NCBI GenBank assembly: GCA_021791875.1
Contig: JAJYVU010000004.1
Span: forward strand, 1-64,000
DNA length: 64,000 bases
Reading direction: 5' to 3'
Source of the DNA: Acidobacteriota bacterium
GTDB lineage: Bacteria; Acidobacteriota; Terriglobia; Terriglobales; Acidobacteriaceae
Below, one piece after another: positions 32,847 through 53,594 of the stretch (its first letter is position 1; each line of letters begins with the position of its first letter). The position numbers were made by a program, and so were the translations under genes. The notes under the pieces are model-generated. The model was not told where the DNA came from. It did no database searches and saw only the letters and a list, made by a program, of their open reading frames with translations.

Positions 32847-33108
32847 GGCGACCTCCTCCGAAACGACCGCAGACACTGGATGCGGCGATTCCCGGCAGTC
32901 CCGTTTTCACCGCCTGGATGGGGCAGTGGAAACTGGAACAAAATTCGGGAGAAATTCCCTCCGGGCACTTAACATATGCCTCGGCCCTTGACGGGTGCAA
33001 TGTCTGTGACGGGGAACACAGATTGGTGATCTGCCCAGGCTGTTCCCATCTTTTGCTGCGCGTAGGATGGGGCAGCGTGCGGAATGGCGAGCGGAAAGGA
33101 CGTTGAGG

Positions 33109-34731
33109 ATGAAAAGTGCTCTGTTGCGCTGGGTTGCGGGAGGAGCGATGGCGCTGGCCTTGTCGGCATCTGCGCGCGGCGCGACGGCGAAGGTAGAGAC
33201 TGCGCCGGAAGTGAAGATCGCAAGCGGCCTGGTGCGCGGCAAGAGCATGGCCGCCCTGCCGGAGGGCGGCGGGTTTCTGGGCATTCCCTATGCGGCCCAG
33301 CCTGTGGGAAAGTTACGCTGGCGGGCGCCCCAACCGGCTCCGCACTGGAACGGCGTTCGCGAAGCGACGCATTGGGGGCCGGCGTGTCCGCAGAAACCGA
33401 GCGGCTGGTTGCCGGAGATGCTGGGGATTCGGGCAATGCCCACGAGCGAAGCCTGCCTGTATGTGAACGTCTGGACGCCGCAGCTCCATCCGGCGAAGAA
33501 GCTGCCGGTGCTGGTGTGGATTCACGGCGGCGGGAATGTGGAGGGCTCCGGAGAGTGGCCGCCGCTGGGACCGACGCTGGCGAAAACCGGGATCGTCGTG
33601 GTGAGCCTGAACTATCGGCTGGGGGCGTTTGGGTTCTTTGCCTACAAGCCGCTGGATGGCGAGTCGCGCGAGGATGTTTCGGGAAACTACGGGAACCTGG
33701 ATCAAATTGCGGTGCTGAGATGGGTGCGGCGCAATATCGCGGCCTTCGGGGGCGATCCGGGGAGGGTGACGATCGCGGGCCAGTCGTCGGGTTCGGAGGA
33801 CGTGTGCATTCTGATGGCGTCGCCGCTGGCGCGAGGTTTGTTTGAGGGCGCGGTGCTCGAGAGCGGGACATGCGTGGATTCGGTCTACCCGAAGCTCCCG
33901 ACAGAGGAAACAAGCGGCGAGCGGCTGGCGCTGGATCTGGGCGTGAAACCCGGTCCGCATGCGCTGAAGAAGCTGAGAGCGATTCCAGCGGAACGTATTT
34001 TGAATGCGGCGGCCAGGGACGGAGATGTGGATCTGGAGCCGACCATCGATGGCTGGATGCTGCGGCAGCAGCCCGGCATCACGTTTGCCCACGGGCAGCA
34101 GGCGCCGGTTGCCGTCTTGGTAGGGACGAATGAGGATGAGGTGTCGATCTTTGCCAGCCCACTCGTGCACGGGACCGCATACCGGCCGAAGACGCTGGTA
34201 GAGTACCGCAAATGGCTACAGGACGAGTTCGGGAGCAAATTTGCCGGGCGGGTGTTCGCGGCGTATCCGGCGCATGAGGACAGCCAGGTGCCGGGTGTCT
34301 TTCGGACCATGTTCAGCGATTACGATTTTGCCTTCAGCGCGTGGCTGCTGGCGAAGGATACCGCGCTCACGGGCCGAGAAGCTTATTTGTATCGCTTCAC
34401 CTATGTGGGAGCAGGGCCATTTGCGAAGTTGGGAGCATTCCACACCGAAGAGCTGATGTTCCTGAGCCGGCATTACTGGACCACATGGGTTCGGCAGCCG
34501 GGAGATGCGGCTTTGTCGCGAACGCTCGTAGGCTACTGGAGCCGTTTTGTGAAAACTGGGAATCCCAATGGCCCGGCATTGCCGGAATGGCCGGTCTTCC
34601 GGAGCCGCGAGAACGATTGCCAGGAGCTGGGCCGGCGGGTGGGGCCGGAACGAGTGCCAAGGGTAAAGAAAATGGCCATCTTCTACGAATATCTGCGCAC
34701 GCGTCTCAAGGGTTTGCCCGCGAACCCATAA
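33109..34731 (+). CDS. Exported type-B carboxylesterase
   Basis: 540 residues. A signal peptide (MKSALLRWVAGGAMALALSA) is followed by an alpha/beta hydrolase of the carboxylesterase/para-nitrobenzyl esterase family. FLGIPYAAQPVGKLRW and SEACLYVNVWTP are the family signatures, VLVWIHGGGN is the oxyanion loop, and the nucleophile elbow is GQSSG (usual GESAG). The acid Glu is in GTNEDEV and the His in FHTEELMF. It hydrolyses esters outside the cytoplasm; substrate unknown. ATG 33109 with AAGGA upstream was chosen over the open frame from 33067. Codon style in this gene is G-ending rather than C-ending compared with neighbours. Confidence 0.92.
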   Translation: MKSALLRWVAGGAMALALSASARGATAKVETAPEVKIASGLVRGKSMAALPEGGGFLGIPYAAQPVGKLRWRAPQPAPHWNGVREATHWGPACPQKPSGWLPEMLGIRAMPTSEACLYVNVWTPQLHPAKKLPVLVWIHGGGNVEGSGEWPPLGPTLAKTGIVVVSLNYRLGAFGFFAYKPLDGESREDVSGNYGNLDQIAVLRWVRRNIAAFGGDPGRVTIAGQSSGSEDVCILMASPLARGLFEGAVLESGTCVDSVYPKLPTEETSGERLALDLGVKPGPHALKKLRAIPAERILNAAARDGDVDLEPTIDGWMLRQQPGITFAHGQQAPVAVLVGTNEDEVSIFASPLVHGTAYRPKTLVEYRKWLQDEFGSKFAGRVFAAYPAHEDSQVPGVFRTMFSDYDFAFSAWLLAKDTALTGREAYLYRFTYVGAGPFAKLGAFHTEELMFLSRHYWTTWVRQPGDAALSRTLVGYWSRFVKTGNPNGPALPEWPVFRSRENDCQELGRRVGPERVPRVKKMAIFYEYLRTRLKGLPANP

Positions 34732-35093
34732 CCACCCCGTCGCCGGATCGTTGCGTCAGCTCTTTGCTCTGGATTTGTCGTCGCCACCAGGGCCTGTTAA
34801 CGCCCTCGTCATGCGCTCGCGTAAATTCCGGACCTCAACCTCCATTACCCGGGTGCCTTGCAAGCCGATCCGAGGCGCTTGCCCCGTTACCGGACCGTGA
34901 ATCACCCTGAAGACCCCTCCACCGCGCACAACCCCCTCACAACACCGCACTTATCCCCGCCGGCCGGCGCCTCGGCCACCCCGGCTCAACGCCCCTTGCC
35001 ACCCTCCCGTATAATGGGAAAAACCGAGACGGTAGCCCGGCCATCGCCGTTTCTTGAGCGGCCCGTCGCCATGTGCCGCTGTGATGGATTTCT
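34732..35093. other. Intergenic region before greA
   Basis: 362 bases. A perfect -10 TATAAT stands at 35010-35015, about 80 bases before the greA start, with no clear -35. A small hairpin AGGGC...GCCCT near 34792 may end the esterase transcript. No gene seen. Confidence 0.5.
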
Positions 35094-35594
35094 ATGCCCG
35101 AACATATTAAGAAAAAACTCCTGGAAGAGATCAAGCAACTGGAGCACGAGCTCGCTCATGAGCTTCCAGCCGAGATTAAGAAAGCCGCTGCCCTCGGCGA
35201 TCTCAGCGAAAATGCCGAATATCACATGGCCAAGCAGCGCCAGGAATTCGTCAACGCCCGCCTCGGTCAGCTCAAGCGCCGCATGGCCGAGCTTTCCCTC
35301 GTCAATCTGTCGAATATCCCCCATGACCGCATCGCCTTCGGCTCCACCGTCGAAGTCTTCGACACCTCCAAGGACGAAAAAATCGAGTACAAGCTCGTCA
35401 CCAGCGAAGAATCCGACGTCACCAACGGCCTCATCTCCACCACTTCGCCCATTGGCCGGGCCCTCATCGGCAAGCAGGTTGGCGACATCGCTACCGTCGT
35501 GACGCCCAGCGGCAAGCGCGAACTCGAAATCCTCAAACTCACGACCATTCACGACGAAGCGGCCACCGCGACCGCCGACTCCACCGAACAGTAA
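35094..35594 (+). CDS. greA: Transcription elongation factor GreA
   Basis: 166 residues: N-terminal coiled coil (about 1-75; GDLSENAEYHMAKQRQEF carries the acidic Asp/Glu tip, here D36 and E39 region, that triggers RNA cleavage in stalled polymerase) and a C-terminal FKBP-like domain (GKQVGDIATVVTPSGKRELEI). It is slightly longer than usual, with an Ala/Thr-rich tail. A TATAAT -10 lies about 80 bases upstream. The CDP-alcohol phosphatidyltransferase gene starts 10 bases after the stop, so the two probably form an operon. Confidence 0.95.
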   Translation: MPEHIKKKLLEEIKQLEHELAHELPAEIKKAAALGDLSENAEYHMAKQRQEFVNARLGQLKRRMAELSLVNLSNIPHDRIAFGSTVEVFDTSKDEKIEYKLVTSEESDVTNGLISTTSPIGRALIGKQVGDIATVVTPSGKRELEILKLTTIHDEAATATADSTEQ

Positions 35595-35604
35595 GTACCT
35601 CAGG

Positions 35605-36384
35605 GTGACAGCATTGCCCACGCAGGATTCCCGAATCGACTCGCAGCGTTCCCCGCAGGGTGCGGCGCCTCGCACCCACTCACGCTCCTGGACGCTCGCC
35701 TTCGGCAGAGCCTGCGGCGTGCTGCTTCAGGCCATCGTCAACGGTCTCGCGCTCACCCGCATCTCGCCCAACACCCTTACCTTTATTGGTCTGCTCATCA
35801 ACACGGTCGCCGCCGTCCTCTTCGGCTTCGCCAACTCACGCAACTACGTCAGCATGTTCCTCTACGCCGGCCTCGTCATCATTGGCGCCGGCATCTTTGA
35901 CATGGTCGACGGACGCGTCGCCCGCCAGACCCAGCAGGTCACCGTCTTCGGGGCATTCTTTGACTCCGTCATCGACCGCTACTCTGATGTTGTCCTCTTC
36001 TTCGGGCTCCTTGTCTTCTACGCCCGCGGCAATCGCCTCTTTTACGTCGACCTCACCGCCTTTGTCATGGTCACCTCGCTCATGGTCAGCTACACTCGCG
36101 CCCGCGCCGAGGCCCTCATCGGAAAATGCAAGGTCGGCTTCATGGAACGCCCTGAGCGCGTCGTCCTCATCATTCTTGGCGCACTCTTCATGCGCTGGGA
36201 CGCCATGGCACCCGTGCTCTGGGTCCTCGCCGCACTCTCGACGCTCACCGTCATCCACCGCATCCGCTACACCTTCGAGCAAACCCGCCACATCGCCCCG
36301 CTCAAGGCCGGCGAACCCATGCCGTCGCCCAACCGGGCGTCCATCGAACCAGCGCCCGCGCCCGTCACCACCCGCAACGCATAG
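35605..36384 (+). CDS. CDP-alcohol phosphatidyltransferase family protein
   Basis: 259 residues with about six transmembrane helices. The family motif D-x2-DG-x2-AR-x8-G-x3-D-x3-D is complete (DMVDGRVARQ, then GAFFDSVIDR), so an active Mg-dependent phosphoalcohol transferase of phospholipid synthesis is expected at the inner membrane. The acceptor (glycerol-3-phosphate, inositol phosphate, serine) cannot be told apart by eye. The start is GTG at 35605, 10 bases after greA. The Pro/Ala-rich tail is poorly conserved-looking. Confidence 0.88.
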   Translation: MTALPTQDSRIDSQRSPQGAAPRTHSRSWTLAFGRACGVLLQAIVNGLALTRISPNTLTFIGLLINTVAAVLFGFANSRNYVSMFLYAGLVIIGAGIFDMVDGRVARQTQQVTVFGAFFDSVIDRYSDVVLFFGLLVFYARGNRLFYVDLTAFVMVTSLMVSYTRARAEALIGKCKVGFMERPERVVLIILGALFMRWDAMAPVLWVLAALSTLTVIHRIRYTFEQTRHIAPLKAGEPMPSPNRASIEPAPAPVTTRNA

Positions 36385-41152: not shown

Positions 41153-42145
41153 TCAACGAGCAACGTTGCTCGGAGCACTCGCGGCTCCCACCGGCTCCGG
41201 TTCCGCCTGCTGCCGTGACCCAAATGCTGGGACCAGCCATTTCCGGTACGTCTGAAGATTTCCACGCACCGCCTCAAAATACAACCGGCGCATCTCGCCC
41301 GTGACTGCTCCGATGACCCCGTCTTTCACCGGCCGGTGATCCACACGCACCACCGGTGAAATGCCCACGGCAGTCCCCGTCAGGAACAGTTCATCGCAAA
41401 TGTACAGTTCACTGCGGTCGATCGCCCGCTCTGCAACCGCCAGCCCCATCTCGTGCTGCGCCAGCTCCATCACCGAATCCCGCGTGATTCCCTCCAGCAC
41501 ATTTTCTGTAACCGATGGTGTGACGAGTTTGCCCCTGCGCATCATGAATATGTTGCAGGTTGCACCTTCAGAGACCTGCCCGTTTTCATTCAGAAACAAG
41601 GCCTCATCGTATCCCGCGCGCCGCGCGTCGTCGGTGGCCAATGCGCTGTTCACATAGGCGCCGCAGATCTTGCCCCGCGCCGGAATCGAATTGTCTTCGA
41701 GCCGCCGCCAGGAGCTGACTCCTACGTGCAGCCCTTTGTCCGGCAGGTATTGGCCGAAGGGCAGCGCCACCACTGCAAAGGCATCCTGGTCGTCGGTGGC
41801 TACGCCCACGCGCTCCGCGGATTTGTATGCAAGCGGCCGGACGTAGATGTCGGTGCGAAGCGAATTCCTCCGCACCAGCTCAGCCGTGATCTCGCACAAC
41901 TGCTCCGCCGATGCGGGCACGTCGATGCGCAGAATCCCGCAGTTCTGCTTCCAGCGCTGGTAGTGTTCGACTGGCCTCACCAGAAAGAGCTGCTGTTCCG
42001 TGTCATTCCAATACCCTCGGATCCCCTCAAAAACGCCCGTCCCGTAATGCAGCGCGTGGGTCAGGATCCCGACCTGAGCTTCGCGCAGCGGTACGTACTC
42101 TCCACCGAAATACACAATCAGATTCGGATCAGCCTCAGCCTTCAT
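41153..42145 (-). CDS. ilvE: Branched-chain amino-acid aminotransferase
   Basis: 330-residue class IV PLP enzyme interconverting valine, leucine and isoleucine with their 2-oxo acids. HYGTGVFEGIRGYW near the N-terminus, YVRPLAYKS, Lys159 in RGKICGAYVNS (PLP Schiff base) and the GQVSEGATCNIF loop are intact. AAGGAGGTG 5 bases before ATG 42145 fixes the start. Its first codons overlap the 3' end of the oxidoreductase beta-gamma gene by 11 bases, so the two are translationally coupled. It is the last gene of the five-gene leftward operon and would supply 2-oxoisovalerate to the oxidoreductase, or use it in the reverse, biosynthetic direction. Confidence 0.95.
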   Translation of the reverse strand: MKAEADPNLIVYFGGEYVPLREAQVGILTHALHYGTGVFEGIRGYWNDTEQQLFLVRPVEHYQRWKQNCGILRIDVPASAEQLCEITAELVRRNSLRTDIYVRPLAYKSAERVGVATDDQDAFAVVALPFGQYLPDKGLHVGVSSWRRLEDNSIPARGKICGAYVNSALATDDARRAGYDEALFLNENGQVSEGATCNIFMMRRGKLVTPSVTENVLEGITRDSVMELAQHEMGLAVAERAIDRSELYICDELFLTGTAVGISPVVRVDHRPVKDGVIGAVTGEMRRLYFEAVRGNLQTYRKWLVPAFGSRQQAEPEPVGAASAPSNVAR

Positions 42146-43607
42146 GACACACCTCCTTGAGCGACTCCCGCAGAAGCTCACGCCCCTGCGCAAGCGCCCG
42201 TTTATCCAGTTCCAGCCACTTCGCGTTCTTCACCATCCGCCCCAGCGCCTTGTCGATGGTCTCCTGCGATAGCGCGCCGGTGCACTCCAGCAGAGCGCCT
42301 AACATCACCATGTTCCCGGCCCGCCGGTCACCCAGTTGATTCGCAATTTGCATAAATGGCCGCGCCAGCACCTGGAGATCGGAGCGATCGCAGCCCTCCG
42401 GCATCGCATCGCCGTTGTACAGCACCCATCCGCCCGGACGCACGCTCTCGTAGAACTTATGCAACGACGGCTCATTCATCGCCACCAGCACATCCGGACG
42501 CACGACCAGCGGCGAGTCGATCGCCTCGTCCGATAACCGCACATGGCAGTTCGAGGTGCCGGAACGCATCTCGGGCCCGTACGATGGCAGCCAGGAAACC
42601 TCCAACCCGGCATCGAGCCCCGCTTCAGCCAGCACTTCACCCAGCAGCAGCACGCCCTGCCCGCCGAAACCGGCAACGCGCACCTGCAGGTTCGTGGTCT
42701 TTGGCCTGACAAAAGGAGCCGCATGTGATTCCGCTGGCCCTTCATGCTCAATTCCAAGAAGCTGCGGGATCTCACTCGTGCTCACTGCGGCTTCCGGCAT
42801 CTTTCGCGGCTGCGCTTCCTTGGTGCGGTCGCGAATCACGCCCAGCGGAAAGGTCTTCTCCATCACGTCGCGCACCCAGTGCTGCGCGTCCACTGCCGAC
42901 ATCTTCCAGATCGTCGGACACGGCGACAGAATTTCGACCAGTGAAAAGCCCAGGCCGCGCACCTGATTTTCCAGCGCCTTGCGTACCGCTCGATACGCCT
43001 GTGCAATCTGCTTGTTATCGCCCAGACCCGCGCGCTCGATGTACACGGGGGCTTCCAGCGCGCCCAGCAATTCGCTCACATGCAGCGGATAACCCTCATT
43101 CTCTGCTTTCCGCCCGCCGGGAGTGGTCGTGCTCCACTGCCCCAGCAGTGTGGTCGGAGCGACTTGCCCGCCCGTCATGCTGTAGATGGCGTTGTTGACA
43201 AAAATAACGCTGATGTTTTCTCCGCGATTCGCCGCGTGAAGAATCTCCGCCGAGCCAATCGCCGACAAATCTCCGTCGCCCTGGTAACTCACCACGATGC
43301 TGCCCGGCCGGCTGCGCTTCACCGCCGTCCCCACGGCAGGCGCGCGTCCATGCGCCGCCTGAACGTTGCCCACGTCGAAGTAGTAGTAGGCGAACACCGA
43401 GCAGCCCACTGGGCTGATCAGTATGGTGCGGTTCTGGATGCCCAGCTCATCGATCGCGCGCGCCACCATCTTGTGAATGATGCCGTGCCCGCAGCCCGGA
43501 CAATAGTGCGTCTGGTGCTGAAGCTCGTCCTTCCGATCAAAGTTCGCGTAGAACGTCTTTGACCGCGACTGCGCCAACTCGTATTGCATTTCCACTTCGT
43601 CAGACAT
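42135..43607 (-). CDS. vorB: 2-oxoacid:ferredoxin oxidoreductase, fused beta (TPP) and gamma subunits
   Basis: 490 residues. The beta part (1-270) binds thiamine diphosphate: YCPGCGHG (35-42), the GDGD motif at 110-113 and [11 protein letters not shown] at 138-147. The gamma part (about 306-490) has GFGGQG (313-318), where acyl-CoA chemistry takes place in POR/VOR/KOR enzymes. In Thermococcus VOR these are separate proteins; fusion is known in some bacteria. ATG 43607 overlaps the alpha stop by 8 bases. With the alpha and delta subunits it converts a branched 2-oxo acid plus CoA into acyl-CoA, CO2 and reduced ferredoxin. The VOR assignment rests on the ilvE neighbour; KOR or IOR activity is possible. 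Confidence 0.9.
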
Positions 43608-44679
43608 GGGCCACCTGCTCGCTTTCCGCGCAGCATCGCGCTTGGGCCTGCACAAAGGCCAGAACCTCCTCATGCGACGGAACGTTCCCGCCTACTCGGC
43701 TCAGGAACTCCACCGGCCGCGCACCATTCAGCGCCAGCCGCACATCTTCCAGCAGTTGGCCGTTGCTCATCTCCACCACAATGAAAACCTTCGCCCGCTT
43801 CGCGGCTTTCTTGAAATGGAGCGTCGGAAATGGAAACAGTGTGATGGGCCGCAGCACGCCAACACGCAACCCCTCCGCGCGCGCTTCCGCAGCCACGGCT
43901 TTCAGAATGCGGGCCACGATCCCGTAACCGACCAGCACCACATCTGCGTCTTCCATGTACAGCTCTTCAGCGCGAGTCTCGCGCTGACGGGCGATTTCGT
44001 ACTTGGCCTCCAGCTGCCGCACGTGGGCCTCCAGCTCGTCGCTGTTCAGATAAATTGAGCTGATGAGATTCCCGCGTGTCTCTTCCGTCCCGGCCACCGC
44101 CCACTTGGGAAGCCTCGGCCCGACTGCCGCTTGCGGAAACTCGACCGGCTCCATCATCTGCCCGATGAATCCGTCGGTCATCAGCACCACCGGATTCCGA
44201 TAGCGGTCGGCGAGCTCAAAAGCCAGCGCCGTCAGGTCGGCCATTTCCTGCACTGAATGCGGCGCCAGCACCAGCGTGCGGTAGTTGCCATGGCCGCCGC
44301 CTTTCACCACCTGGTGGTAATCGCTCTGCTCCGACGTAATGTTCCCCAGCCCCGGACCTGCGCGCGTAATGTCGGCCACTACGCAGGGCAGTTCCGCGCC
44401 TGCCATGTAACTGATCCCTTCCTGCATCAGACTGATGCCCGGACCGCTCGACGCCGTCATCACGCGCACACCGGCTGAGGCCGCGCCATACAGCATGTTG
44501 ATCGCCGCCACTTCGCTCTCCGCCTGCAGAAAGGTTCCTCCCACACGCGGCAGATACGCGGCGGCCGCTTCGGTGATTTCGCTCGCGGGCGTGATCGGAT
44601 ACCCATAGAAGCCGCGGCAGCCTGCAAGAACAGCGGCCTTCACGATTGCTTCGTTTCCCTTGATCAATTGCCGGCTCAT
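43600..44679 (-). CDS. vorA: 2-oxoacid:ferredoxin oxidoreductase, alpha subunit
   Basis: 359 residues, typical for PorA/Vor[29 protein letters not shown] is the family N-terminus (cited in part), [17 protein letters not shown] and [14 protein letters not shown] form the TPP pyrimidine site, and a transketolase-C-like domain with GYGIVARI follows. Its ATG overlaps the delta-subunit stop by 4 bases (ATGA), and its own stop overlaps the beta-gamma gene by 8, so the three subunits are made in coupled fashion. Cytoplasmic enzyme, oxygen-sensitive in known relatives. Confidence 0.93.
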
Positions 44680-44960
44680 CGTCCCACTCCCTCACTCATC
44701 TCTGCTTTGGCTGCGCTGCTGCCTGCATGGGCCAGGCGAAGCACGGTAATCGCTCCCGGCTCCGGACACGCCAGGAAGCAGATGCCGCATCCGGTGCAGC
44801 CCGCTCCCACGTAGGTCGCCGTTGGATAACCATAATGATTCAGCTCGTCGCTCAAATGAATCACCTTGGGCGGGCAGGCTTCGACGCAGAGCCCGCAGCC
44901 TTTGCACTCATCCGTGTCGATCCTCAGAGATCCTCGATCTCGTTTTCCCGTGTCCGCCAT
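44676..44960 (-). CDS. vorD: 2-oxoacid:ferredoxin oxidoreductase, delta (2[4Fe-4S] ferredoxin) subunit
   Basis: 94 residues with two full [4Fe-4S] motifs: Cys19/22/25/29 ([12 protein letters not shown]) and Cys55/58/61/65 ([12 protein letters not shown]). It passes electrons from the TPP site to ferredoxin. The Ala/Glu-rich tail (74-94) is unconserved. GGAGG precedes the start, and its stop is coupled to the alpha subunit (ATGA). The CoA-transferase gene lies 26 bases upstream on the same strand. Confidence 0.95.
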
Positions 44961-44986
44961 TGTGTCCTCCTTCTGCCCACCGCCGG

Positions 44987-46309
44987 TTAGGCCACTGCTC
45001 CTGCCGGTTTGCGTTCCAGATAATGCGCGCGCACGGCAAAGTCCTCAAGCTCCGCCTGGAACCGCGGATCGGCAATCGCAATCAATGCCTCGGCCCGCTC
45101 GCGTAGTGTCTTGCCGTGAAGATAGGCAATTCCGTGCTCCGTAATGACGTAGTGCACATCCGCGCGAGAGGTTACAACGCCCGCGCCCGGCTCCAGCACC
45201 GGCACGATTCTTGATAACTGTCCGCCACGCGCCGTCGCAGGCAGTGCAATAATCGGCACCCCGCCTTTCGAGCGCGCTGCGCCGCGGATGAAATCCACCT
45301 GGCCGCCGAAGCCGCTGTATGGCTTTGTTCCAATCGAATCGGAACATACCTGTCCGGTCAGGTCCACCTGCAACGCGGAGTTGATCGCAACCATGCGATC
45401 GTTCTGCGCCACCACATACGGATCGTTCGTGTAGCAGATAGGCCGGAACTCAAAGCCGGGATTGTCATGGATAAAATCGAAGAGCCGCTTCGTTCCCAGA
45501 ACGAATGCCGCGACCGCCTTGCCTCTATGCAACGATTTCCGGTCGCCGTTGATGATCCCGGCCTCGATCAGATCGATCACCGTATCGCCAATCAGCTCGG
45601 TGTGTATGCCCAGGTCGCGCTTATCGCCGAGGCACGTTAGCACCGCTTCCGGGATACCGCCAATGCCGGTCTGCAGCGTGGCGCCATCGGGAATCAGGGA
45701 GGCGACGTTGCGCGCCACTCCCAGATGAACCTCGGTAAACTTCTCGGCGTGCAGTTCCAGCAAGGGCCGGGATGTCTCCACCACAGAAGTAATGTGGCTC
45801 ACATGGATAAATGTGTCGCCATGCGTGCGCGGCATCTGGTCGTTCACCTCGGCGATGATGATCCGGGCATGGCGACTGGCGGTCAGCGTGGAATCCACCG
45901 TCGTACCCAGGCTGACAAAGCCATGCGCGTCCGGAGGAGAAACTTGCATCAGCACCACATCCAGTGGCAACGCACCGCTCACAAAGAGTCCTTCAATTTC
46001 GCCGAGAAAGATCGGCGTGTAATCGGCGCGTCCAGCAGCCACCGCGTCGCGGGTATTCGCTCCCAAAAATAAGCCCCGATGGCGGAATCGCCCCTCGTAT
46101 TCGGGCTTCGTGTAGTCGGCGCTGCCCAGCGTCATCATGTGCACGACCTCCACGTCATGCAGTTCGCCGGCCCGCGCGACCAGGGCATGCACAAGTGTCG
46201 ACGGTGTGCCCACGCCCGACTGGATCCAGACACGCTCGCCCGAACGCACGGCTCCCAGGGCCTCGGCCGCCGTCATCCGCTTGCTCTTAAAATCCTCTTT
46301 CCAGCTCAT
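44987..46309 (-). CDS. Acetyl-CoA hydrolase/CoA-transferase (4-hydroxybutyrate CoA-transferase-like)
   Basis: 440 residues, the length of AbfT/Cat2-type class I CoA-transferases. [12 protein letters not shown]-like [12 protein letters not shown] (212-223) binds CoA, and the catalytic glutamate is Glu238 in IHTELIGD, where the CoA thioester anhydride forms. [18 protein letters not shown] is the conserved C-terminal motif. It moves CoA between acyl groups such as isobutyryl and acetate, so here it can release the branched acid while conserving the thioester. First gene of the leftward operon, 26 bases before the ferredoxin subunit. Its promoter must lie in the 664-base gap shared with the ArsR operon. 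Confidence 0.9.
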
Positions 46310-46973
46310 TCAGATCCCATCCCCCTTGGCCTGCCCGCTCCAGCGGTGCGTCCCGTTGTTCGCTGCCACAGCGCCTTCGCTTCAAGCCGTTCCAGTCGGA
46401 CGCTGCTCCGTGGCCTTTCCCTTGAGAAAAGGCCGCTCTGAGTTCACCCAGGTCGTCCTCGGATCAGGCAAAAACGCCCTAACCCAAGCAGAATCAATCG
46501 TCCGCAAAATAGCCACACGAGTACGGACCCTCTGCGGGGTATCCGCCTCCAAAACCGATATACGCTACGCTCCTTCCCGCGGTGTTCGAAGTGACGACCA
46601 TCACGTCAGTCAGTCGATTTCCTCCCGCCTCATCTGGCGCGCCTGTCACCACTCGCAATGCGATCTGGGCAAGCGGACTGGTGTGCGCGGGTCGCCTCCG
46701 CTCGCTGGCACCGCAATGCTCCGTGGCTATCCCGCCCACGCTGCAATTACAACAATGCAGCCCATGCGCCCTCATCACGCAAAGATCCACCGTCGGCCCC
46801 GGAGGCGCCACCGGCAAAGCGAACACTCCATGATTCCTGTGCCGCGCATCACACTATGTTGGCCATGCGCAGATGCGTGACCGGCGTCACAGATGTGTAA
46901 CTCCCGCTCTCGTACTATTTGCGTAGTTAATGAAATACGCAAATAAGCGGTATCGAAGAAGGGGGAGTATGCA
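46310..46973. other. 664-base divergent control region
   Basis: It separates the CoA-transferase/VOR operon (leftward) from the ArsR/Qmo-like operon (rightward). The right end holds the ArsR-type operator (46917-46944) and the ribosome site GGGGGAG before ArsR. A leftward 110-codon frame at 46494-46826 has a somewhat protein-like end (VTSNTAGRSVAYIGFGGGY) but no start signal or family; it could be a gene remnant. A palindromic GAGAAAAGGCCG-type stretch near 46424 was also noted. The length leaves room for more than one regulator. Confidence 0.5.
46917..46944. promoter_or_regulatory. ArsR/SmtB-type operator
   Basis: 12-4-12 inverted repeat: ATTTGCGTAGTT, AATG, AAATACGCAAAT, with 11 of 12 pairs matching. 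Position 30 bases before the ArsR start codon fits autorepression of the whole rightward operon. The symmetry and size match ArsR/SmtB dimer sites. Confidence 0.8.
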
Positions 46974-47339
46974 ATGCGAGCTGTGACAGATGCATCCTGT
47001 GAATTGCTGGGCGAGTTCTTCGCCACCTTCGCGCATACCACCCGCATGCGAATCCTCTGCGCTCTGCAGCGCGGGCCTCGATCCGTCACCGAGATCGCGC
47101 TCAGCGCCCGCATCTCGATCCCGAACGCCTCGCAGCACCTGCGCCTCATGCGCGATCGGGGAGCGGTGATCTCCGACAAGCACGCCCAGAGCGTTTATTA
47201 CGAAATTGCTGATCCAAGGATCATCGAAGCAATGGCGATGATCCGCATCTCCCTGTCCGACCATCTGCAGCGGAATGCGAAGCGGGCCTCGGCTCGCCCT
47301 GCATCACGCGGCGGACGCAACCACCTCCAACCCGCCTGA
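46974..47339 (+). CDS. ArsR-family transcriptional regulator
   Basis: 121 residues with a winged helix: TTRMRILCALQRGPRSVTEI, then recognition helix PNASQHLRLMRDRGAV, and wing SVYYEI. The metal motif ELCVCDL of classical ArsR is missing. Two cysteines (Cys9 and Cys29) are spaced so that they could form a disulfide or polysulfide link, as in the sulfane-sulfur sensors SqrR/BigR, although those use different positions. Given the TusA and DsrE2 genes downstream, a persulfide or redox signal is the best guess. GGGGGAG precedes ATG 46974. The operator sits directly upstream. The C-terminal tail is basic. Confidence 0.92.
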   Translation: MRAVTDASCELLGEFFATFAHTTRMRILCALQRGPRSVTEIALSARISIPNASQHLRLMRDRGAVISDKHAQSVYYEIADPRIIEAMAMIRISLSDHLQRNAKRASARPASRGGRNHLQPA

Positions 47340-47381
47340 CGGCGGTCAGTCTTCATCTGGAGTCTATTCAGGAGTATTCAT

Positions 47382-47633
47382 ATGAGCGAAGCGATTGCAG
47401 CCATCACAGCCGACAAAGTCATTGACGCGCGCGGAACCGCATGTCCCGGCCCGCTGCTCGAAGCCAAGAAAGGTATCGGCCAGGTGAAGGTCGGACAAAT
47501 TATTGAGATCAAATCCAACGATAAAGGATCGCGCAAGGACATCGCTGCATGGGCAGGAAAGGTAGGCCATGAGTTCCTGGGCTTCGTCGAAGCCGATGGA
47601 CACGACCGCATCATGGTGCGCCGTAAAAAGTAA
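47382..47633 (+). CDS. tusA: TusA-family sulfurtransferase/sulfur carrier
   Basis: 83 residues. The TusA signature CPxP is at 21-24 (TACPGPLLEAKK) with Cys21 as the persulfide-carrying residue. The rest follows the TusA two-layer fold (VIDARG, VGQIIEIKSNDKGSRKDIAAWAGKVGHEFLG). TusA proteins shuttle sulfane sulfur to tRNA thiolation, molybdenum cofactor or sulfur-oxidation (sHdr, Dsr) systems. It is the second gene of the operon, 42 bases after ArsR, with CAGGAG upstream. The lack of tusBCDE nearby and the DsrE2-like gene in the same operon favour a dissimilatory sulfur role. Confidence 0.95.
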   Translation: MSEAIAAITADKVIDARGTACPGPLLEAKKGIGQVKVGQIIEIKSNDKGSRKDIAAWAGKVGHEFLGFVEADGHDRIMVRRKK

Positions 47634-47663
47634 TCACTAAAATTACGTTTTTGTTTGAAACCC

Positions 47664-47687
47664 GTGCCGGTCCGGCAGGGCCGGCAC
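47664..47687 (+). promoter_or_regulatory. Hairpin between tusA and the MvhD-like gene
   Basis: GTGCCGG and CCGGCAC arms (47664-47670 and 47681-47687) with a 10-base interior; no T-run follows. It may attenuate or protect the downstream message so that TusA is made in excess. Confidence 0.35.
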
Positions 47688-47732
47688 CCACTCCATCGAT
47701 CCTTTGCGAGACGATGGTTGCGGGAGATGGAC

Positions 47733-48233
47733 ATGAGTGACCCGTTCGTTCCCAAGATCCTGGTTCTGGCTACTGACAAGTGCGCTTATCCAGGAGCCGA
47801 CGCAGTCGGCAAAGCGCATCAGGAATATCCCTCCAACGTATATATTCTCCGCGTACTTTCCCCGGTGCTCTTCCCGGAAGACTTTTACCTGCGCGCCTAC
47901 AGCCAGGGCATTGACGGCATCCTCATTGCCGCCTGCGGCTCCGACTGCCCCTATCATGGCGCCTACGACCGGCTGGCGGTGCGTATCGATGAACTCACCT
48001 CCCGCATGAAGTCCGGCGGGCTTGAGATCGAGCGCATTCGGATCACCGCCATCTGCACTGTCTGTATCAAGGCTTTTCTGAAAGAGATCGCGCAGATGAG
48101 CGATCACCTCTATCAACTCGGCCCCGTGAATCGCGAACTGGCTGAGCAACTGCGTCGCGAATCGGTGGAGCGCATGCAGGCGAAGGCCCGTTTCCCCCGC
48201 CTTGCTCCCGCACTCCAGGGAGGCCTGGGATGA
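47733..48233 (+). CDS. MvhD-family iron-sulfur electron-transfer protein
   Basis: 166 residues from ATG 47733 with GGGAG 6 bases upstream (ATG 47727 is too close to the ribosome site). Family pattern: KILVLATDKCAYPGAD, YPSNVYILRVLSP, GIDGILIAACGSDCPYHGAYD. Cysteines 17, 68, 72, 108 and 111 are candidates for the [2Fe-2S] cluster. MvhD links hydrogenase or formate dehydrogenase to HdrA in methanogens; in sulfate reducers the same domain is fused to the end of QmoB. Here it stands alone and overlaps the first HdrA-like gene by 4 bases (ATGA), so it very likely docks on that flavoprotein. Confidence 0.85.
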   Translation: MSDPFVPKILVLATDKCAYPGADAVGKAHQEYPSNVYILRVLSPVLFPEDFYLRAYSQGIDGILIAACGSDCPYHGAYDRLAVRIDELTSRMKSGGLEIERIRITAICTVCIKAFLKEIAQMSDHLYQLGPVNRELAEQLRRESVERMQAKARFPRLAPALQGGLG

Positions 48234-49558
48234 ATACACAAATCAACTCAGATTATGTTCCGGATGTGTTGGTGATTGGCGGCGGCATTGCAGGCCTGCA
48301 GTCCGCCCTCGATCTCGCCGATCAGGACCTCCGGGTTCTCGTCGTCGAACGCAACTCGAGCATCGGCGGCCGCATGATCGGCCTCAGCAAGGTCTTCCCC
48401 ACGCTCGATTGCGCCAGTTGCATCACCACGCCCAAAATGTCCGCTGCGGCGCACCATCCCAACATTCAGATCCTCACCAATACCGAGGTGCAGGCCATGG
48501 AGACGCGCAACGGCATACACAGCGTGCGCTTGCTCCAGAAACCCACCTACGTGAACTTCGACAAATGCATTGGTTGCCGGCTCTGCGAATACGCATGCGA
48601 CACGGAATATCCTGACCCGTTTGAAGAGGGACTGGGTTCCGTCCGCGCCATCGCAGTTCCCTTCACCAACGCCATTCCGCAGAAGGCGGTGCTCGATGCC
48701 GAACATTGCGCCACCTGTGGCGTCTGCGCGCGGGTTTGCCCCACCGACGCCATTGAGTTCGATCAGCAGCCCCGTACGCTCACTATCCATACTGACTCCG
48801 TGATCGTCGCATCGGGATTCAACCTGAATGCGGTCACGGTGAAGCCGCAATACAACGCGGCACGCAGCAGCAACATCATCCCTCCAACCATGATGGAGCG
48901 GCTGCTTGCCCCGCATGGTCCTTACGGCCGCGTCCTGCGCCCCTCCGACGGCAAAATCCCCTCCTCGGTGGCATTTGTTCAGTGCGCAGGTTCCCGCGAC
49001 GAATCCATCGGCGTACCCTACTGCTCTCGCGTCTGCTGCATGTATGCCATCAAGCAGGCGATGCTGCTCTCCGGGGCGCTGCCGCTGGCCGACATCACCA
49101 TCTACTACATGGATATTCGCGCCTTCGGCAAAGGCTACGAGCAGTTCTTCCAGAATGCCAGAGCGATGGGCATCAACTTCGTGCGTGGCAAAGTCGCGCG
49201 CGTCGATCCCATCGAAGATGGCGACCTGCGCCTGCATGTGGAAACCACCGATGATGCGGAGAACCCTCTGCAGGAGCATCGTCACGACCTCGTCGTCCTG
49301 GCGCAGGGCATGATTCCCGCATGGAACCCGGCAGCAACAACGCCCGTCGCCTGCGCAAGTGACGGCTTTGTAGCCACGCCCTCGCTCACCGACCCTACAG
49401 CCACATCCGCCCCTGGAATCTTCGTGGCGGGTGCGGCGGCCGGGCCAAAGGACATTGTCGACACCATTGCGGAGGCCGGCGCTGCTGCCATGCAGGTCAG
49501 CCGGTATCTCCATGAAAAGCGGGCAGCAGTGCTGGTCGGCCAGGCCGTGCACGGATAA
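48230..49558 (+). CDS. qmoA: HdrA-like flavoprotein 1 (QmoA-like)
   Basis: 442 residues. FAD-binding GGGIAG at 17-22, then a Cys pair (Cys61/64 in DCASC), then an inserted 2[4Fe-4S] ferredoxin domain (Cys113/116/119/123 and Cys160/163/166/170), then the HdrA-type FVQCAGSRDE and YCSRVCCMYAIKQ segments. It lacks the N-terminal HdrA extension, as QmoA does. In known systems HdrA/QmoA takes or gives two electrons and routes them between iron-sulfur carriers; HdrA can bifurcate. GGGAGG precedes ATG 48230. It is coupled to the MvhD-like gene upstream and 18 bases from the second HdrA-like gene. Confidence 0.88.
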   Translation: MNTQINSDYVPDVLVIGGGIAGLQSALDLADQDLRVLVVERNSSIGGRMIGLSKVFPTLDCASCITTPKMSAAAHHPNIQILTNTEVQAMETRNGIHSVRLLQKPTYVNFDKCIGCRLCEYACDTEYPDPFEEGLGSVRAIAVPFTNAIPQKAVLDAEHCATCGVCARVCPTDAIEFDQQPRTLTIHTDSVIVASGFNLNAVTVKPQYNAARSSNIIPPTMMERLLAPHGPYGRVLRPSDGKIPSSVAFVQCAGSRDESIGVPYCSRVCCMYAIKQAMLLSGALPLADITIYYMDIRAFGKGYEQFFQNARAMGINFVRGKVARVDPIEDGDLRLHVETTDDAENPLQEHRHDLVVLAQGMIPAWNPAATTPVACASDGFVATPSLTDPTATSAPGIFVAGAAAGPKDIVDTIAEAGAAAMQVSRYLHEKRAAVLVGQAVHG

Positions 49559-49576
49559 CGGCTCACGGAGGAAACC

Positions 49577-51475
49577 ATGAGCGAGCATAACCAACAGGTG
49601 CAACCCCAGAAGAACAAACCGATGCAGAATGAGCGTGCCGCAGACGCCCCCTTGCGCATCGGCGTCTACATCTGCCGCTGCGGCGGCAACATCTCTGACG
49701 TGGTCGATGTTGACCGCGTCGCCGAAACCGTAAAGCTGCTGCCCGACGTTGTGACGGCAAAGGTTCACACCTTTGCCTGCTCCGACCCCGGCCAGCAGAC
49801 CATCACCAACGACATTCTCGAGCAGAATCTGGACCGCGTCGTCGTTGCCTCCTGCACACCCTTTCTGCACGAGCAGACATTTCGTGGCGCCGTCTCACGC
49901 GGCGGACTGAATCCTTATCTCTACGAGCATGTGAATATTCGCGAGCAGGCCTCGTGGGCTCATAAGCATGACCCCGAAGGCGCAACCATCAAGGCGATCC
50001 GCATGATCGCAGCCGCGGTGGGCAAGCTCCATCACGTGGAGCCGCTCGAACAGATCAAGCTGCCCAATCATCGCCGCGCGCTGGTCGTCGGTGGCGGCAT
50101 TGCCGGCATGAAGGCCGCCTCAGAGCTCGCCGGGCGAGGCATCAAGGTACTGCTTGTCGAAAGCTCGCAGCGGCTTGGCGGTCAGCTCAACGACCGTGGA
50201 CGAGTCTATCCAACCGAGCGTGACGCCAAAGAACTGGTCGAGGAACTCGCGCGTCGCGTGCGCACGCACAGCAACATCGAGATTCTCATGCAAAGCAATG
50301 TCACGGCAGTCAGCGGTTTCATTGGCAACTTCAAAGTCGCCATCCGCACAGAGGCCGCAGGCATCCCTGTCACTGAAACCACGGTGGGCGCCATCATCAT
50401 GGCCACCGGCTTCCGGCCCTATGTTCCGCAGGATGGCGAATTTCTATACCGCACCGAGCCCGGCGTCGTCACCATGCCGGAGTTTCTGCAACTCCTGCGC
50501 TCCACTCCCGATGCTGCCCGAAAGCTCACCTGGAATGGACGTGTCATTCGCAATATCGCATTCTTGCACTGCGTCGGCAGCCGTCAGTTGGACGGCGTGC
50601 ACGAGCCGCCGCCGAACGGACGCCTCAACACCTACTGCTCGCGAACCTGCTGCACCACCATTCTCCAGCAGGCGCTTGAAGTGCGCCATCGCTTCCCGTC
50701 GGTCGGTGTCTTTGACTTCTATCGCGACATCCGTACCTACGGGCGCGGCGAAGAAAACTATTACTCCGCCGCGAGCAGAGCGGGAGTCACCTTCTTCCGC
50801 TATAACGGTGAAGAGCCGCCAAGGGTCGAGCTCACTCCTCGCGCCCGCGCCAAAGAGGGTGTGCTCTCAGTCACGCTGAACGACACTCTCACCTGGGGAA
50901 CAGAGCTCTCCGTGCCCGTCGACATGGTCGTGCTCGGAACGGGCATGATGCCGGGAGAAATTGCGGATCTCATCGAACAGATGAAACTCGCCACCGGCGA
51001 GGACGGTTTCCTGCAGGAAGTACACCCCAAGCTGCGCCCCGTCGAAGTCTCCGTCAACGGCATCTTGCTTGCCGGAACCGCGCAAGGACCCATGAACATT
51101 CAGGAGACGCTCGCCGCTGCCGGAGCTGCTGCCGTCAAGGCCGCGGCCATGTTTGCCAGGGAAGACGTCGAGTTGAATCCATACGTCGCCGAGGTCGATC
51201 TTTCGCGCTGCTGCGGCGAAGCCTTGTGCGTCACGCAATGCGACTATGAAGGCGCCCTCCAAATGGTGTCCATGGAAGTCGAGGGCGCAACCGTGGAGCG
51301 CGCGCAGGTCAACGCGGGGCTTTGTGTCGGTTGCGGCGCATGCGTCGCGGTCTGCCCGAATCGCGCCATCGATGTCAATGGCTGGCGGCTCGATCAGTTC
51401 GAAGCCATGGTGGATGGCATCGCGGCCGCTATCCCCGGCCAGGAATGCACGCCTGAGCTTGTCAACATTCACTAA
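49577..51475 (+). CDS. qmoB: HdrA-like flavoprotein 2 (QmoB-like, without MvhD domain)
   Basis: 632 residues. The N-terminal domain (about 27-150) has HdrA segments IGVYICRCGGNISDVVDV, FACSDPGQQ, VVVASCTPFLHEQTFR and NIREQASW. FAD motif GGGIAG lies at 172-177, and FLHCVGSRQ and YCSRTCCTTILQQ follow. The C-terminal ferredoxin part has one normal cluster (Cys583/586/589/593, CVGCGACVAVCP), but the first site reads CCGEALCVTQC: the second canonical Cys is Glu548 and an extra Cys546 is next to Cys545. QmoB of sulfate reducers ends in an MvhD domain, here encoded separately at 47733. GGAGG precedes the start. Confidence 0.88.
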   Translation: MSEHNQQVQPQKNKPMQNERAADAPLRIGVYICRCGGNISDVVDVDRVAETVKLLPDVVTAKVHTFACSDPGQQTITNDILEQNLDRVVVASCTPFLHEQTFRGAVSRGGLNPYLYEHVNIREQASWAHKHDPEGATIKAIRMIAAAVGKLHHVEPLEQIKLPNHRRALVVGGGIAGMKAASELAGRGIKVLLVESSQRLGGQLNDRGRVYPTERDAKELVEELARRVRTHSNIEILMQSNVTAVSGFIGNFKVAIRTEAAGIPVTETTVGAIIMATGFRPYVPQDGEFLYRTEPGVVTMPEFLQLLRSTPDAARKLTWNGRVIRNIAFLHCVGSRQLDGVHEPPPNGRLNTYCSRTCCTTILQQALEVRHRFPSVGVFDFYRDIRTYGRGEENYYSAASRAGVTFFRYNGEEPPRVELTPRARAKEGVLSVTLNDTLTWGTELSVPVDMVVLGTGMMPGEIADLIEQMKLATGEDGFLQEVHPKLRPVEVSVNGILLAGTAQGPMNIQETLAAAGAAAVKAAAMFAREDVELNPYVAEVDLSRCCGEALCVTQCDYEGALQMVSMEVEGATVERAQVNAGLCVGCGACVAVCPNRAIDVNGWRLDQFEAMVDGIAAAIPGQECTPELVNIH

Positions 51476-51495
51476 CGCCGCAAAGGAAAACTGCG

Positions 51496-51828
51496 ATGGC
51501 AATGAAAACTCTCACCGCGGAACAAAAGAAGGCGCTGGCCGCATTGCGCGAAAGCATCGGCGGAATCAGCGATGAAAAGCGCCAGAAGCAAAAGCACCTG
51601 CTGACAACGCGCAAGGCTCTCATGAAGTTCCTTGAGCAGCAGCCCGCCACCGTGCCGCAAATCGCCGAGGCCCTGCAGATATCCGCCGACGAAGCATTGT
51701 GGCACGTCACCGGCATGCGCAAGTACGGCAAGATCGCCGAATCCGGCGAGGATGGCGACTATCCGCTGTATGCGCTGGCGGCCCTTGAAGAGAAAGCACA
51801 CTCCGGCAGCCAGGAGGTGAAGCCATGA
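51496..51828 (+). CDS. Small winged-helix protein inside the Qmo-like operon
   Basis: 110 residues: a helical, Lys/Gln-rich N-terminus (1-35) and a winged-helix-like domain (about 38-95; TRKALMKFLEQQPATVPQIA, EALQISADEALWHVTGMRKYG, YPLYAL as wing). No metal or ligand motif. It overlaps the QmoC-like gene by 4 bases (ATGA) and follows the second HdrA-like gene by 20 bases, so it is produced together with the complex subunits. It may be a second regulator or a structural/assembly subunit; the sequence does not decide. Confidence 0.75.
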   Translation: MAMKTLTAEQKKALAALRESIGGISDEKRQKQKHLLTTRKALMKFLEQQPATVPQIAEALQISADEALWHVTGMRKYGKIAESGEDGDYPLYALAALEEKAHSGSQEVKP

Positions 51829-53000
51829 CCCACGTCGTAGACCGTTCGCTGTTGCGGAAAATCAAACGGCACGGAGCGGGCAGCAAGCTGGATGTCGACG
51901 CCTGCTTTCAGTGCGGCAACTGCACCGCCGTCTGCCCGCTGGCAGAGGACTCCGGAGGCTTTCCGCGGCGCCTGATTCGGATGGCGCAATTGGGCATGGA
52001 AAAGGAGTTACTGGCCAGCGAAGATATCTGGCGCTGTTATGCGTGCGGTGAATGTACGCAGACCTGCCCACGGCAGGCTGATCCTGCCGAGTTCATGGCC
52101 GCGACGCGCAGTTATGCCATCTCGCGTTACGACTTCACGGGGCTGGCGGCGCTGGCCAATCGCTCGGTGCTCGGCAACTTGGCGGTCTTCGCCCTGTTCT
52201 CGATCGTCTTCGGGCTGCTGCTCGCCAGCGCGCAAGCTCCTGTGAGCCCGCAGGCTCCGCTCTTCGACTTTATTCCCGGCTGGTGGATCCACGCCATCGG
52301 CGTCGCGCTGTTTGTCGTCGTTGGTATCAGTGCGGCACTGGGAATGTTTGCCATGTTCGCCCGCTTCGTCATGGGACAGCGACGCAAGGGAGTGCCGTTA
52401 CGCCTCGGCGCATTGCCCGGCGCCATCGCCTCCGCAGTCACCGATGCCCTGATGCATCGCCGCTTCCAGCGTTGCGACTCGGGCCAGGCCACGCCACCGC
52501 CGCCGGTTGAGCCGTGGTACCTGCGTGCGTGGGTCGTGCATGCCGCGGTCATGGGCGGCTTCCTCACCATGCTCCTGGCAACCACTCTCGATTTTCTCTT
52601 CAAGCCCATCGGCTCCCCGGTACCACCGTGGTATCCCATGCGCATCCTCGGACTCGTCGGCGGCCTTACGTGCCTCTACGGGCTCGCCATCATCTTCCTG
52701 CGCCGCATCCGCGCAGCCCAGCCGCCCTGGCGCAAGAGCGCATTCTCTGACTGGTTTTTCCCGTCGCTTCTGGCGGCAACCGTGCTCACGGGACTGGCCA
52801 CGGAAGTCTCCGTCTATGCGCCGCTCGGCAGCGTCGGCCACGGAATCTTCTTCACTCACGTCGTGTTGGCGATGGATCTGGTTGCGATGCTGCCTCTCAC
52901 CAAGTTTGCTCATGTGCTCTACCGTACCCTGGCGCTCACGCTCTTCGCATGGCGTCACGCACCCGCCCGCGAACACGTCACCGTGGATGCACAGATATAG
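51825..53000 (+). CDS. qmoC: HdrC-cytochrome b fusion (QmoC-like membrane subunit)
   Basis: 391 residues. HdrC-like N-terminus with two [4Fe-4S] motifs: Cys27/30/33/37 (CFQCGNCTAVCP) and Cys71/74/77/81 (CYACGECTQTCP). Then a membrane part with about six helices from residue 115. Histidines in WWIHAIG, WVVHAAV, FFTHVVL and KFAHVLY are placed in the helices as expected for two b-type hemes (NarI/HdrE-like). This HdrC+HdrE fusion is the defining feature of QmoC, which connects the soluble flavoproteins to menaquinone. GGAGGTGA precedes the start. HdrB (CCG domain) is absent, so heterodisulfide reduction as in methanogens is not expected. Confidence 0.9.
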   Translation: MTHVVDRSLLRKIKRHGAGSKLDVDACFQCGNCTAVCPLAEDSGGFPRRLIRMAQLGMEKELLASEDIWRCYACGECTQTCPRQADPAEFMAATRSYAISRYDFTGLAALANRSVLGNLAVFALFSIVFGLLLASAQAPVSPQAPLFDFIPGWWIHAIGVALFVVVGISAALGMFAMFARFVMGQRRKGVPLRLGALPGAIASAVTDALMHRRFQRCDSGQATPPPPVEPWYLRAWVVHAAVMGGFLTMLLATTLDFLFKPIGSPVPPWYPMRILGLVGGLTCLYGLAIIFLRRIRAAQPPWRKSAFSDWFFPSLLAATVLTGLATEVSVYAPLGSVGHGIFFTHVVLAMDLVAMLPLTKFAHVLYRTLALTLFAWRHAPAREHVTVDAQI

Positions 53001-53033
53001 TTCTTTGACTTTTCCTCCGAAAGGATGTGCCCG

Positions 53034-53594
53034 ATGAACAACACCGCTACGGAAACAGATATCCGCCAGACGTTGGAAGAGCTGACCGCACGCGTCAACG
53101 CCCTCGAACAGTCCGCGGGCAACGACCGTCTCTCCATTGGCGTGATGAGCGGCAATCTCGATACCACCATCGCTGCTTTCATCATTGCCCTGGGCGCGGT
53201 TGCCTATGACATGCAAGTCGACATGTTCTTCACCTTCTGGGCGACAGCCGCATTGCGCGACCCCAGAAAATCACCTCCCAAGGGACTGCTCGACAGGATG
53301 TTCGGCTGGATGCTGCCGCGCAGTTCCCATGCATTGCCGCTTTCAAAAATGCAGATGGCCGGCATCGGCCCCAAAATGATTCGCTCCGTCATGAAGCAGC
53401 GCGGCGTCAAATCTCTGGAACAGCTCATGAAAGAAGCAGCCGAGTTTGGCGTCCGAATCCACGTGTGCGAAATGTCGATGGGCGTCATGGGCCTGAAGGA
53501 AGAAGAGATGATCGACTATCCCGGCATTGATTATGTCGGCGTAGGCTCCTTCATCCAGATGATCGGAGAATCGAAACAGGTCATCTTTCTCTAA
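53034..53594 (+). CDS. DsrE/DsrF-like (DsrE2 group) sulfur-transfer protein
   Basis: 186 residues from ATG 53034 (AAAGGA 8 bases upstream; ATG 53025 is too close). A short coiled coil (about 10-27) precedes a DsrE fold: LSIGVMSGNLDTTIAAFIIALGAVAYDMQVDMFFTFWA (cited only as residues 33-70) with a hydrophobic second helix typical of DsrE2, and the conserved Cys145 in HVCEMSMGVMG. DsrE2-type proteins bind or mobilise sulfane sulfur and are regular partners of TusA in sulfur oxidisers. Last gene of the operon, 33 bases after the QmoC-like gene. Confidence 0.88.
   Translation: MNNTATETDIRQTLEELTARVNALEQSAGNDRLSIGVMSGNLDTTIAAFIIALGAVAYDMQVDMFFTFWATAALRDPRKSPPKGLLDRMFGWMLPRSSHALPLSKMQMAGIGPKMIRSVMKQRGVKSLEQLMKEAAEFGVRIHVCEMSMGVMGLKEEEMIDYPGIDYVGVGSFIQMIGESKQVIFL

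Follow-up and report, generated by a model that had tools for sequence, protein, structure and literature searches.

A Qmo-like membrane complex co-inherited with TusA and DsrE: a candidate link between carrier-bound sulfur and the quinone pool in Acidobacteriota and beyond

With what does a Qmo-like membrane complex exchange electrons when it is encoded together with sulfur carriers of the TusA and DsrE type? The question is raised by an operon at 46974-53594 in the stretch of acidobacterial DNA analyzed here (the window: bases 1-64000 of contig C22 in genome G000, an assembly of 4.17 Mb in 165 contigs, 93% complete). Its eight open reading frames, all on the + strand and spaced by short gaps or 4-base-pair (bp) overlaps, encode an ArsR-type regulator, TusA, an MvhD-type protein, two HdrA paralogues resembling QmoA and QmoB, a small winged-helix protein, a QmoC-like fusion of HdrC with cytochrome b and a DsrE-superfamily protein (Table 1). 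We surmise, with a probability of about 0.58, that this operon encodes a quinone-linked, TusA/DsrE-dependent oxidoreductase exchanging electrons with carrier-bound sulfane sulfur; sulfane sulfur is the best reading of the partner because TusA and DsrE proteins are co-inherited with the complex. A sequence-only reading of the locus had proposed electron exchange between the quinone pool and a persulfide or ferredoxin partner; of these the persulfide is retained, with its chemistry as a prediction, whereas little speaks for ferredoxin. As a specific partner, a 2-oxoacid:ferredoxin oxidoreductase was rejected as a weak candidate, its genes lying beside the operon in the window and in loci L075 and L089 and not in the other loci.

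TusA was present in 37/37 operon-bearing genomes tested, exactly once in 25 of them, and the single TusA of the source genome lies inside the operon. Within the window's family, TusA occurred in all four sampled genomes with the operon (G000, G439, G326 and G397) and was not found in any of the 36 sampled family genomes without it, including two genomes of the same genus and G010, an operon-less genome which has canonical apr-qmo and dsr genes. The chance of this split would be 1 in 91,390 if the 40 genomes were independent, which related species are not. Pairwise distances also correlated with those of QmoA (r of 0.91 for QmoB, 0.87 for MvhD, 0.75 for TusA and 0.74 for DsrE2, with 0/300 permutations as high); because the permutation ignores shared ancestry, this agreement shows co-inheritance and not contact. 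A DsrE-family gene is found in 62 of 64 TusA-bearing loci, named and unnamed, that extend at least 6.2 kb upstream of qmoC: 49 have a DsrE2-type gene, and 13 of the remaining 15 a different member of the family. The cysteine of the CPGP motif (Cys21) is kept in 70/70 operon-linked TusA, and Cys148 in 55/55 DsrE. The last gene of the operon, previously labeled DsrE2-like, belongs to the broad DsrE/DrsE_2 family but falls below the cut-off of the curated DsrE2 model (NCBIfam SulfCarrDsrE2, 60.7 vs. 210 bits).

The gene order is kept in other Acidobacteriota and well beyond the phylum. A close QmoC was seen only in G000 among 61 relatives, and the nearest across 396 genomes of the phylum were those of G439, G326 and G169 (68, 63 and 43%). 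Named genomes were scanned with a pattern derived from QmoC rather than TusA, but from loci known to bear TusA; the best 80 named loci all came from metagenome-assembled genomes (MAGs). The recurring order, tusA-mvhD-(dsrE)-qmoA-qmoB-winged helix-qmoC-(dsrE), was found in about 10 bacterial phyla (Acidobacteriota, Planctomycetota, Chloroflexota, Actinomycetota, Bacillota, Bacteroidota, Myxococcota, Armatimonadota, Verrucomicrobiota and FCPU426), a list perhaps somewhat inflated by binning errors, and also in archaea (Archaeoglobales, Thermoplasmatota and Nitrososphaerota). Of the named loci, 57 reach 6.2 kb or more upstream of qmoC; among these, MvhD was encoded in 56, TusA in 54, the winged-helix protein in 49, a DsrE2-type protein in 40 and ArsR in 19. 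Because dozens of unrelated loci show the identical gene order, the arrangement is more than chance, and the tightly coupled eight-gene operon of the sequence-only reading was found with all its reading frames and families. The run from tusA to dsrE is likely a single operon, as predicted from its spacing (about 100 bp after tusA and -4 to 24 bp thereafter), with mvhD most likely starting at 47733 rather than at an upstream TTG. A plasmid search for relatives returned two distant HdrA-type matches and nothing closer.

Could this be canonical (type I) QmoABC, serving an adenosine 5'-phosphosulfate reductase (Apr) that is encoded elsewhere or has been lost? The subunit types are identical, A and B being HdrA-like and C an HdrC-cytochrome b fusion, and no family fits the membrane subunit better than NCBIfam qmoC, whose 196.5 bits nevertheless stay below the cut-off of 300. 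The trees also set the two apart. Both were made by a quick method and drawn from the midpoint, with weak deepest joins (support 47). In the QmoC tree, a branch of 1.68 changes per column, with a Shimodaira-Hasegawa-like approximate likelihood ratio (SH-aLRT) of 100, divides the Apr-linked QmoC and their neighbors (8 rows) from the other 100 rows. In the joint tree of QmoA and QmoB, which included four solved HdrA sequences, 41/41 TusA-linked QmoA fell into one group (SH-aLRT 100) and 41/41 TusA-linked QmoB into one group (SH-aLRT 99); the Apr-linked QmoA and QmoB formed separate clades of their own, and the TusA-linked groups stood apart from methanogen HdrA as well. QmoA grouped with HdrA at one of the weak joins (support 47), and matched the Apr-linked QmoA of locus L056 at 33% in blastp. 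Both types, Apr-linked and TusA-linked, occur together in G397. Six loci without TusA (L058, L062, L131, L139, L141 and L147) lay outside both TusA groups in this tree; L058, L062, L141, L131 and L139, the last from Methanoperedens, show another Qmo-like arrangement in which QmoC and an HdrA pair accompany MvhD.

Gene content was examined genome-wide, the earlier reading having held that aprAB, dsrAB and HdrB are lacking. Neither aprA (best match 32.5 bits vs. a cut-off of 641.75) nor dsrA was found above cut-off in the 93%-complete genome, of which the missing 7% or so could conceal a gene; the two were likewise not found in G439 and G326, the relatives with the closest operons among those searched. 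The genome has a single QmoC and no canonical one. Among 50 named operon genomes (E<=1e-60), aprA was present in 10 and absent from 40, dsrA was present in 13, and 36 had neither; because of these 36, the complex is independent of Apr or Dsr. Conversely, a TusA-type Qmo adjoined apr in 0/18 fetched apr loci, 15 of them from an archaeal phylum and several on short contigs. With all three subunits in other clades than type I, no Apr partner and a separate, altered MvhD where type I QmoB carries MvhD fused C-terminally, canonical Qmo is rejected on trees and gene content, and we regard it as largely refuted and highly improbable.

TusA, DsrE-type carriers and an ArsR-type regulator are common to sHdr loci, and the operon might be an sHdr variant in which sulfane sulfur brought by TusA would be oxidized to sulfite. 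However, sHdr has neither a QmoC membrane subunit nor such an HdrA pair (a separation by gene content), and no HdrB-type protein was found in the genome, the membrane QmoC being in place instead. The one CCG-domain (HdrB-like) locus genome-wide reads as a LutA/LutB-type lactate-utilization pair and not as HdrB, because the adjoining gene is LutB above cut-off. For lack of HdrB this explanation was rejected, and we consider it unlikely. The operon had been described as a mix of Qmo and sHdr parts; what we found instead are paired HdrA-type subunits that form a clade apart and come with their own TusA, DsrE, altered MvhD and winged-helix gene. Neither of the two outcomes that would have overturned the earlier reading, subunits inside canonical Qmo with aprBA elsewhere in the genome or an ordinary sHdr system with HdrB, was observed.

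HdrA-like Qmo complexes are themselves already known. The type II QmoABC of Vulcanisaeta moutnovskia and Ammonifex degensii, found in organisms with or without Dsr/Apr, has QmoA and QmoB nearer to HdrA than to canonical Qmo, and was noted without being given a function (Neukirchen et al. 2023, PMC10504309). The window operon shares with it the QmoC membrane subunit and may share the nearness of QmoA/B to HdrA; it differs, in a comparison by description only, in that the passages of that paper on type II do not mention TusA, DsrE, a stand-alone MvhD or a winged-helix gene as partners. The open-licence literature searched gave no description linking such a complex to any of these four. The claim that the partner system is not yet described thus fails for the HdrA-like Qmo, noted in 2023, but holds for the TusA/DsrE link within that literature, and what appears new here, as far as those passages go, is the association with TusA/DsrE, the altered MvhD and the winged-helix gene.

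The predicted anatomy of the complex is that of a complementary HdrA-type pair on a quinone-side subunit. QmoA aligns to HdrA residues 143-556, comprising the flavin adenine dinucleotide (FAD) core and the inserted two-cluster ferredoxin domain without the N-terminal HdrA domain, and its C61 and C64 are the equivalents of HdrA Cys194/Cys197. QmoB has the N-terminal HdrA domain (C33, C35, C68, C93), the FAD core and a C-terminal ferredoxin domain; it has no counterpart of Cys197, nor the MvhD domain found at the C-terminus of canonical QmoB. One subunit thus has the N-terminal domain without Cys197 and the other the reverse, a pattern taken as a sign of heterodimers (HdrA5/6, 12/13) in anaerobic methanotrophic (ANME) archaea (PMC9012536). 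C61-C123 in QmoA had a lower count (29/41 rows), probably owing to a large insertion there in 12 rows. In one branch, though not in the window's, QmoA bears an insertion of about 430 residues related to GltD, the small subunit of NADPH-dependent glutamate synthase, resembling the NfnB insertion in the ferredoxin domain of ANME-1 HdrA9-11 (PMC9012536); the text of that study differs in being without Qmo, TusA or DsrE. QmoC, the predicted quinone-side subunit, combines two CxxCxxCxxxC cubane-cluster motifs in its HdrC domain with a cytochrome b-type membrane domain, and H239, H345 and H363 are invariant, in Apr-linked QmoC too.

Alignments of canonical MvhD show the motifs CxxC, C and GC...C. 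Window-type MvhD keeps at most C17 of the first CxxC and has S or C at position 43; C108-x2-C111, which canonical MvhD does not have, is invariant in 52/52 operon proteins. The fold itself is that of MvhD in an AlphaFold2 model (predicted local distance difference test, pLDDT, 91.4; template modeling (TM) score to 5odh_D 0.88 by target length), in which C17, position 43, C68/C72 and C108/C111 all follow the ends of strands 1 to 4, suggesting that these cysteines form one re-modeled site.

In solved methanogen complexes, HdrA is fed through MvhD with electrons that come from a hydrogenase, a formate dehydrogenase or an Elp module, and one electron branch runs through HdrC to HdrB (PMC12350162). 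The window operon resembles HdrABC-MvhD and its ElpABC/FdhAB variants in its HdrA domains, cluster cysteines, MvhD fold and MvhD as connector (PMC12350162), whereas its HdrA is split into a heterodimer, its MvhD cysteine set is changed and no hydrogenase, formate dehydrogenase or Elp gene takes the place of the donor module. A quinone-reactive membrane domain replaces HdrB, and TusA/DsrE replace the donor module; electron exchange between TusA-carried sulfane sulfur and quinone is the simplest reading. We postulate that QmoA and QmoB would form a heterodimer of the HdrA type, holding two FADs and a [4Fe-4S] cluster between the subunits, and that MvhD would dock on the QmoB side as the electron entry or exit point, likely where TusA is met. 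QmoC would conduct electrons through its HdrC domain to haem b and the quinone pool, and the substrate would be carried by TusA as a protein persulfide with DsrE as relay, so that the complex would interconvert TusA-bound sulfane sulfur (or a thiol/persulfide pair) and quinone.

Several points weigh against this proposal: 1) the complex lacks an HdrB-type active site and offers no evident place for sulfur chemistry; 2) DsrE and TusA could deliver sulfur to another enzyme; 3) the winged-helix gene and the change of MvhD cysteines are not accounted for; 4) the direction is not fixed, since operon genomes occur both with haem-copper oxidase-family genes (42/61) and without them. In the source organism, electron flow from sulfur to quinone is modestly favored over the reverse because it encodes haem-copper oxidases (two family genes in G000) and can probably respire oxygen. 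One haem-copper oxidase-family gene (L061; G000:C22:75435-76775, -, a 783-aa open frame) lies outside the window, about 22 kb downstream of the operon, and perhaps encodes a quinol-dependent nitric oxide reductase.

The opposite direction, a quinol- (or ferredoxin-/NAD(P)H-) driven persulfide reductase releasing sulfide, would have identical anatomy, and is consistent with the GltD/NfnB-like NAD(P)H domain inside QmoA of another branch, with thioredoxin genes directly 5' of tusA (L116:3954-4337 and L143; Verrucomicrobiota) and with those operon genomes without a haem-copper oxidase. But judged by standard potentials, reduction of a persulfide by quinol is uphill without coupling, and close relatives of the window encode haem-copper oxidases, which leaves this a possible but rather doubtful alternative. 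Also rather doubtful is a flavin-based electron-bifurcating variant, in which electrons of a TusA-bound sulfide/persulfide pair would be split, one share going to menaquinone and the other to a low-potential carrier. This carrier would be ferredoxin in the branch of the window, and NAD(P)+ where QmoA bears the GltD/NfnB-like insertion, which sits in exactly the HdrA domain thought to release low-potential electrons. The approximate potentials are -75 mV for menaquinone, -250 mV for persulfide/sulfide and -340 mV for NADP, by which bifurcation to NAD(P) would be allowed and the ferredoxin version uphill.

Regulation of the locus bears on a further explanation. The probable ArsR operator is a perfect repeat matched by 0/60 shuffles, and most orthologous loci have a shorter-spaced TTGCG...CGCAA palindrome about 20-30 bp 5' of arsR. 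Cys9 and Cys29 are kept in every ArsR of the window's clade, from which we infer a thiol switch. The winged-helix protein is modeled with an ArsR/SmtB-like fold (pLDDT 89.5; best match 1smt, TM about 0.5), and its gene, which sits between qmoB and qmoC, may by this position encode a part of the complex or an assembly factor. The conserved ArsR cysteines and palindrome, together with the winged-helix gene, hint at reactive-sulfur regulation, as would suit a sulfur-trafficking or persulfide-detoxification module whose Qmo-like complex only keeps the carriers reduced or senses redox state. However, a costly multi-subunit FAD/Fe-S/haem complex is conserved across bacteria and archaea while the regulatory gene is the variable one (ArsR in a minority of named loci), and we think such a module very unlikely.

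Table 1. Operon genes and candidate upstream sites in the window (aa, amino acids)
Feature	Position	Strand	Remarks
CRP-like palindrome GTGA-N6-TCAC	46877..46890		upstream of arsR; similar one in same region of L044, L068, L071, L072, L076
Probable ArsR operator, perfect 10-bp inverted repeat TATTTGCGTA-N10-TACGCAAATA	46916..46945		ends 28 bp 5' of arsR
ArsR/SmtB-type regulator, 121 aa	46974..47339	+	NCBIfam HTH_metalloreg 68 bits, above cut-off
TusA sulfur carrier, 83 aa, CPGP motif	47382..47633	+	Pfam 70.9 bits vs. cut-off 28.6
MvhD-type protein, 166 aa	47733..48233	+	Pfam MvhD/FlpD 72.1 bits, above cut-off
QmoA-like HdrA paralogue, 442 aa	48230..49558	+	4-bp overlap with mvhD; NCBIfam HdrA2 451 bits, cut-off 1100
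QmoB-like HdrA paralogue, 632 aa	49577..51475	+	NCBIfam HdrA2 481 bits, cut-off 1100
Small winged-helix protein, 110 aa	51496..51828	+	conserved operon component; predicted ArsR/SmtB-like fold
QmoC-like HdrC-cytochrome b fusion, 391 aa	51825..53000	+	NCBIfam qmoC 196.5 bits, cut-off 300
DsrE-superfamily (DrsE_2) sulfur-transfer protein, 189 aa	53025..53594	+	Pfam DrsE_2 148 bits, above cut-off

Neighboring genes were recorded in the window and in other loci. Divergent from the operon, at 41153-46309 (-), lie genes for a branched-chain aminotransferase, 2-oxoacid:ferredoxin oxidoreductase subunits and a member of the acetyl-CoA hydrolase/transferase family. FadL/OmpP1-type outer-membrane porin genes adjoin the operon on two separate branches, upstream in L045, L070, L073, L074 and L075 and downstream in L047, and perhaps serve uptake of a hydrophobic sulfur compound. 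Directly 3' of dsrE in L074 (10906-12678) is a gene for a CoA-disulfide reductase-like flavoprotein (451 bits vs. a cut-off of 578.8), with related genes in L115 and L144, and a multihaem cytochrome c gene (Cytochrome_C7, MtrC/MtrF-like match) lies downstream of the operon in an Acidobacteriaceae MAG (L070:13559-15496). Elsewhere in the window, GC skew climbs from about -0.2 to near zero over 32001-36000 and is weaker again beyond 44 kb.

These results provide orphan HdrA-like Qmo complexes with a candidate partner, namely dedicated TusA/DsrE carriers of sulfane sulfur conserved across two domains of life. The origin of the best 80 named loci in MAGs alone may explain why the operon has been overlooked. 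We surmise that the complex probably links protein-bound sulfur to respiration by an undescribed route; if so, it would be a third route, beside Dsr and sHdr, coupling cytoplasmic sulfur to the quinone pool, and it would operate in Acidobacteriota, Chloroflexota, Propionibacteriaceae and Bacteroidota, where sulfur metabolism is usually scored by apr, dsr, sox and sHdr alone.

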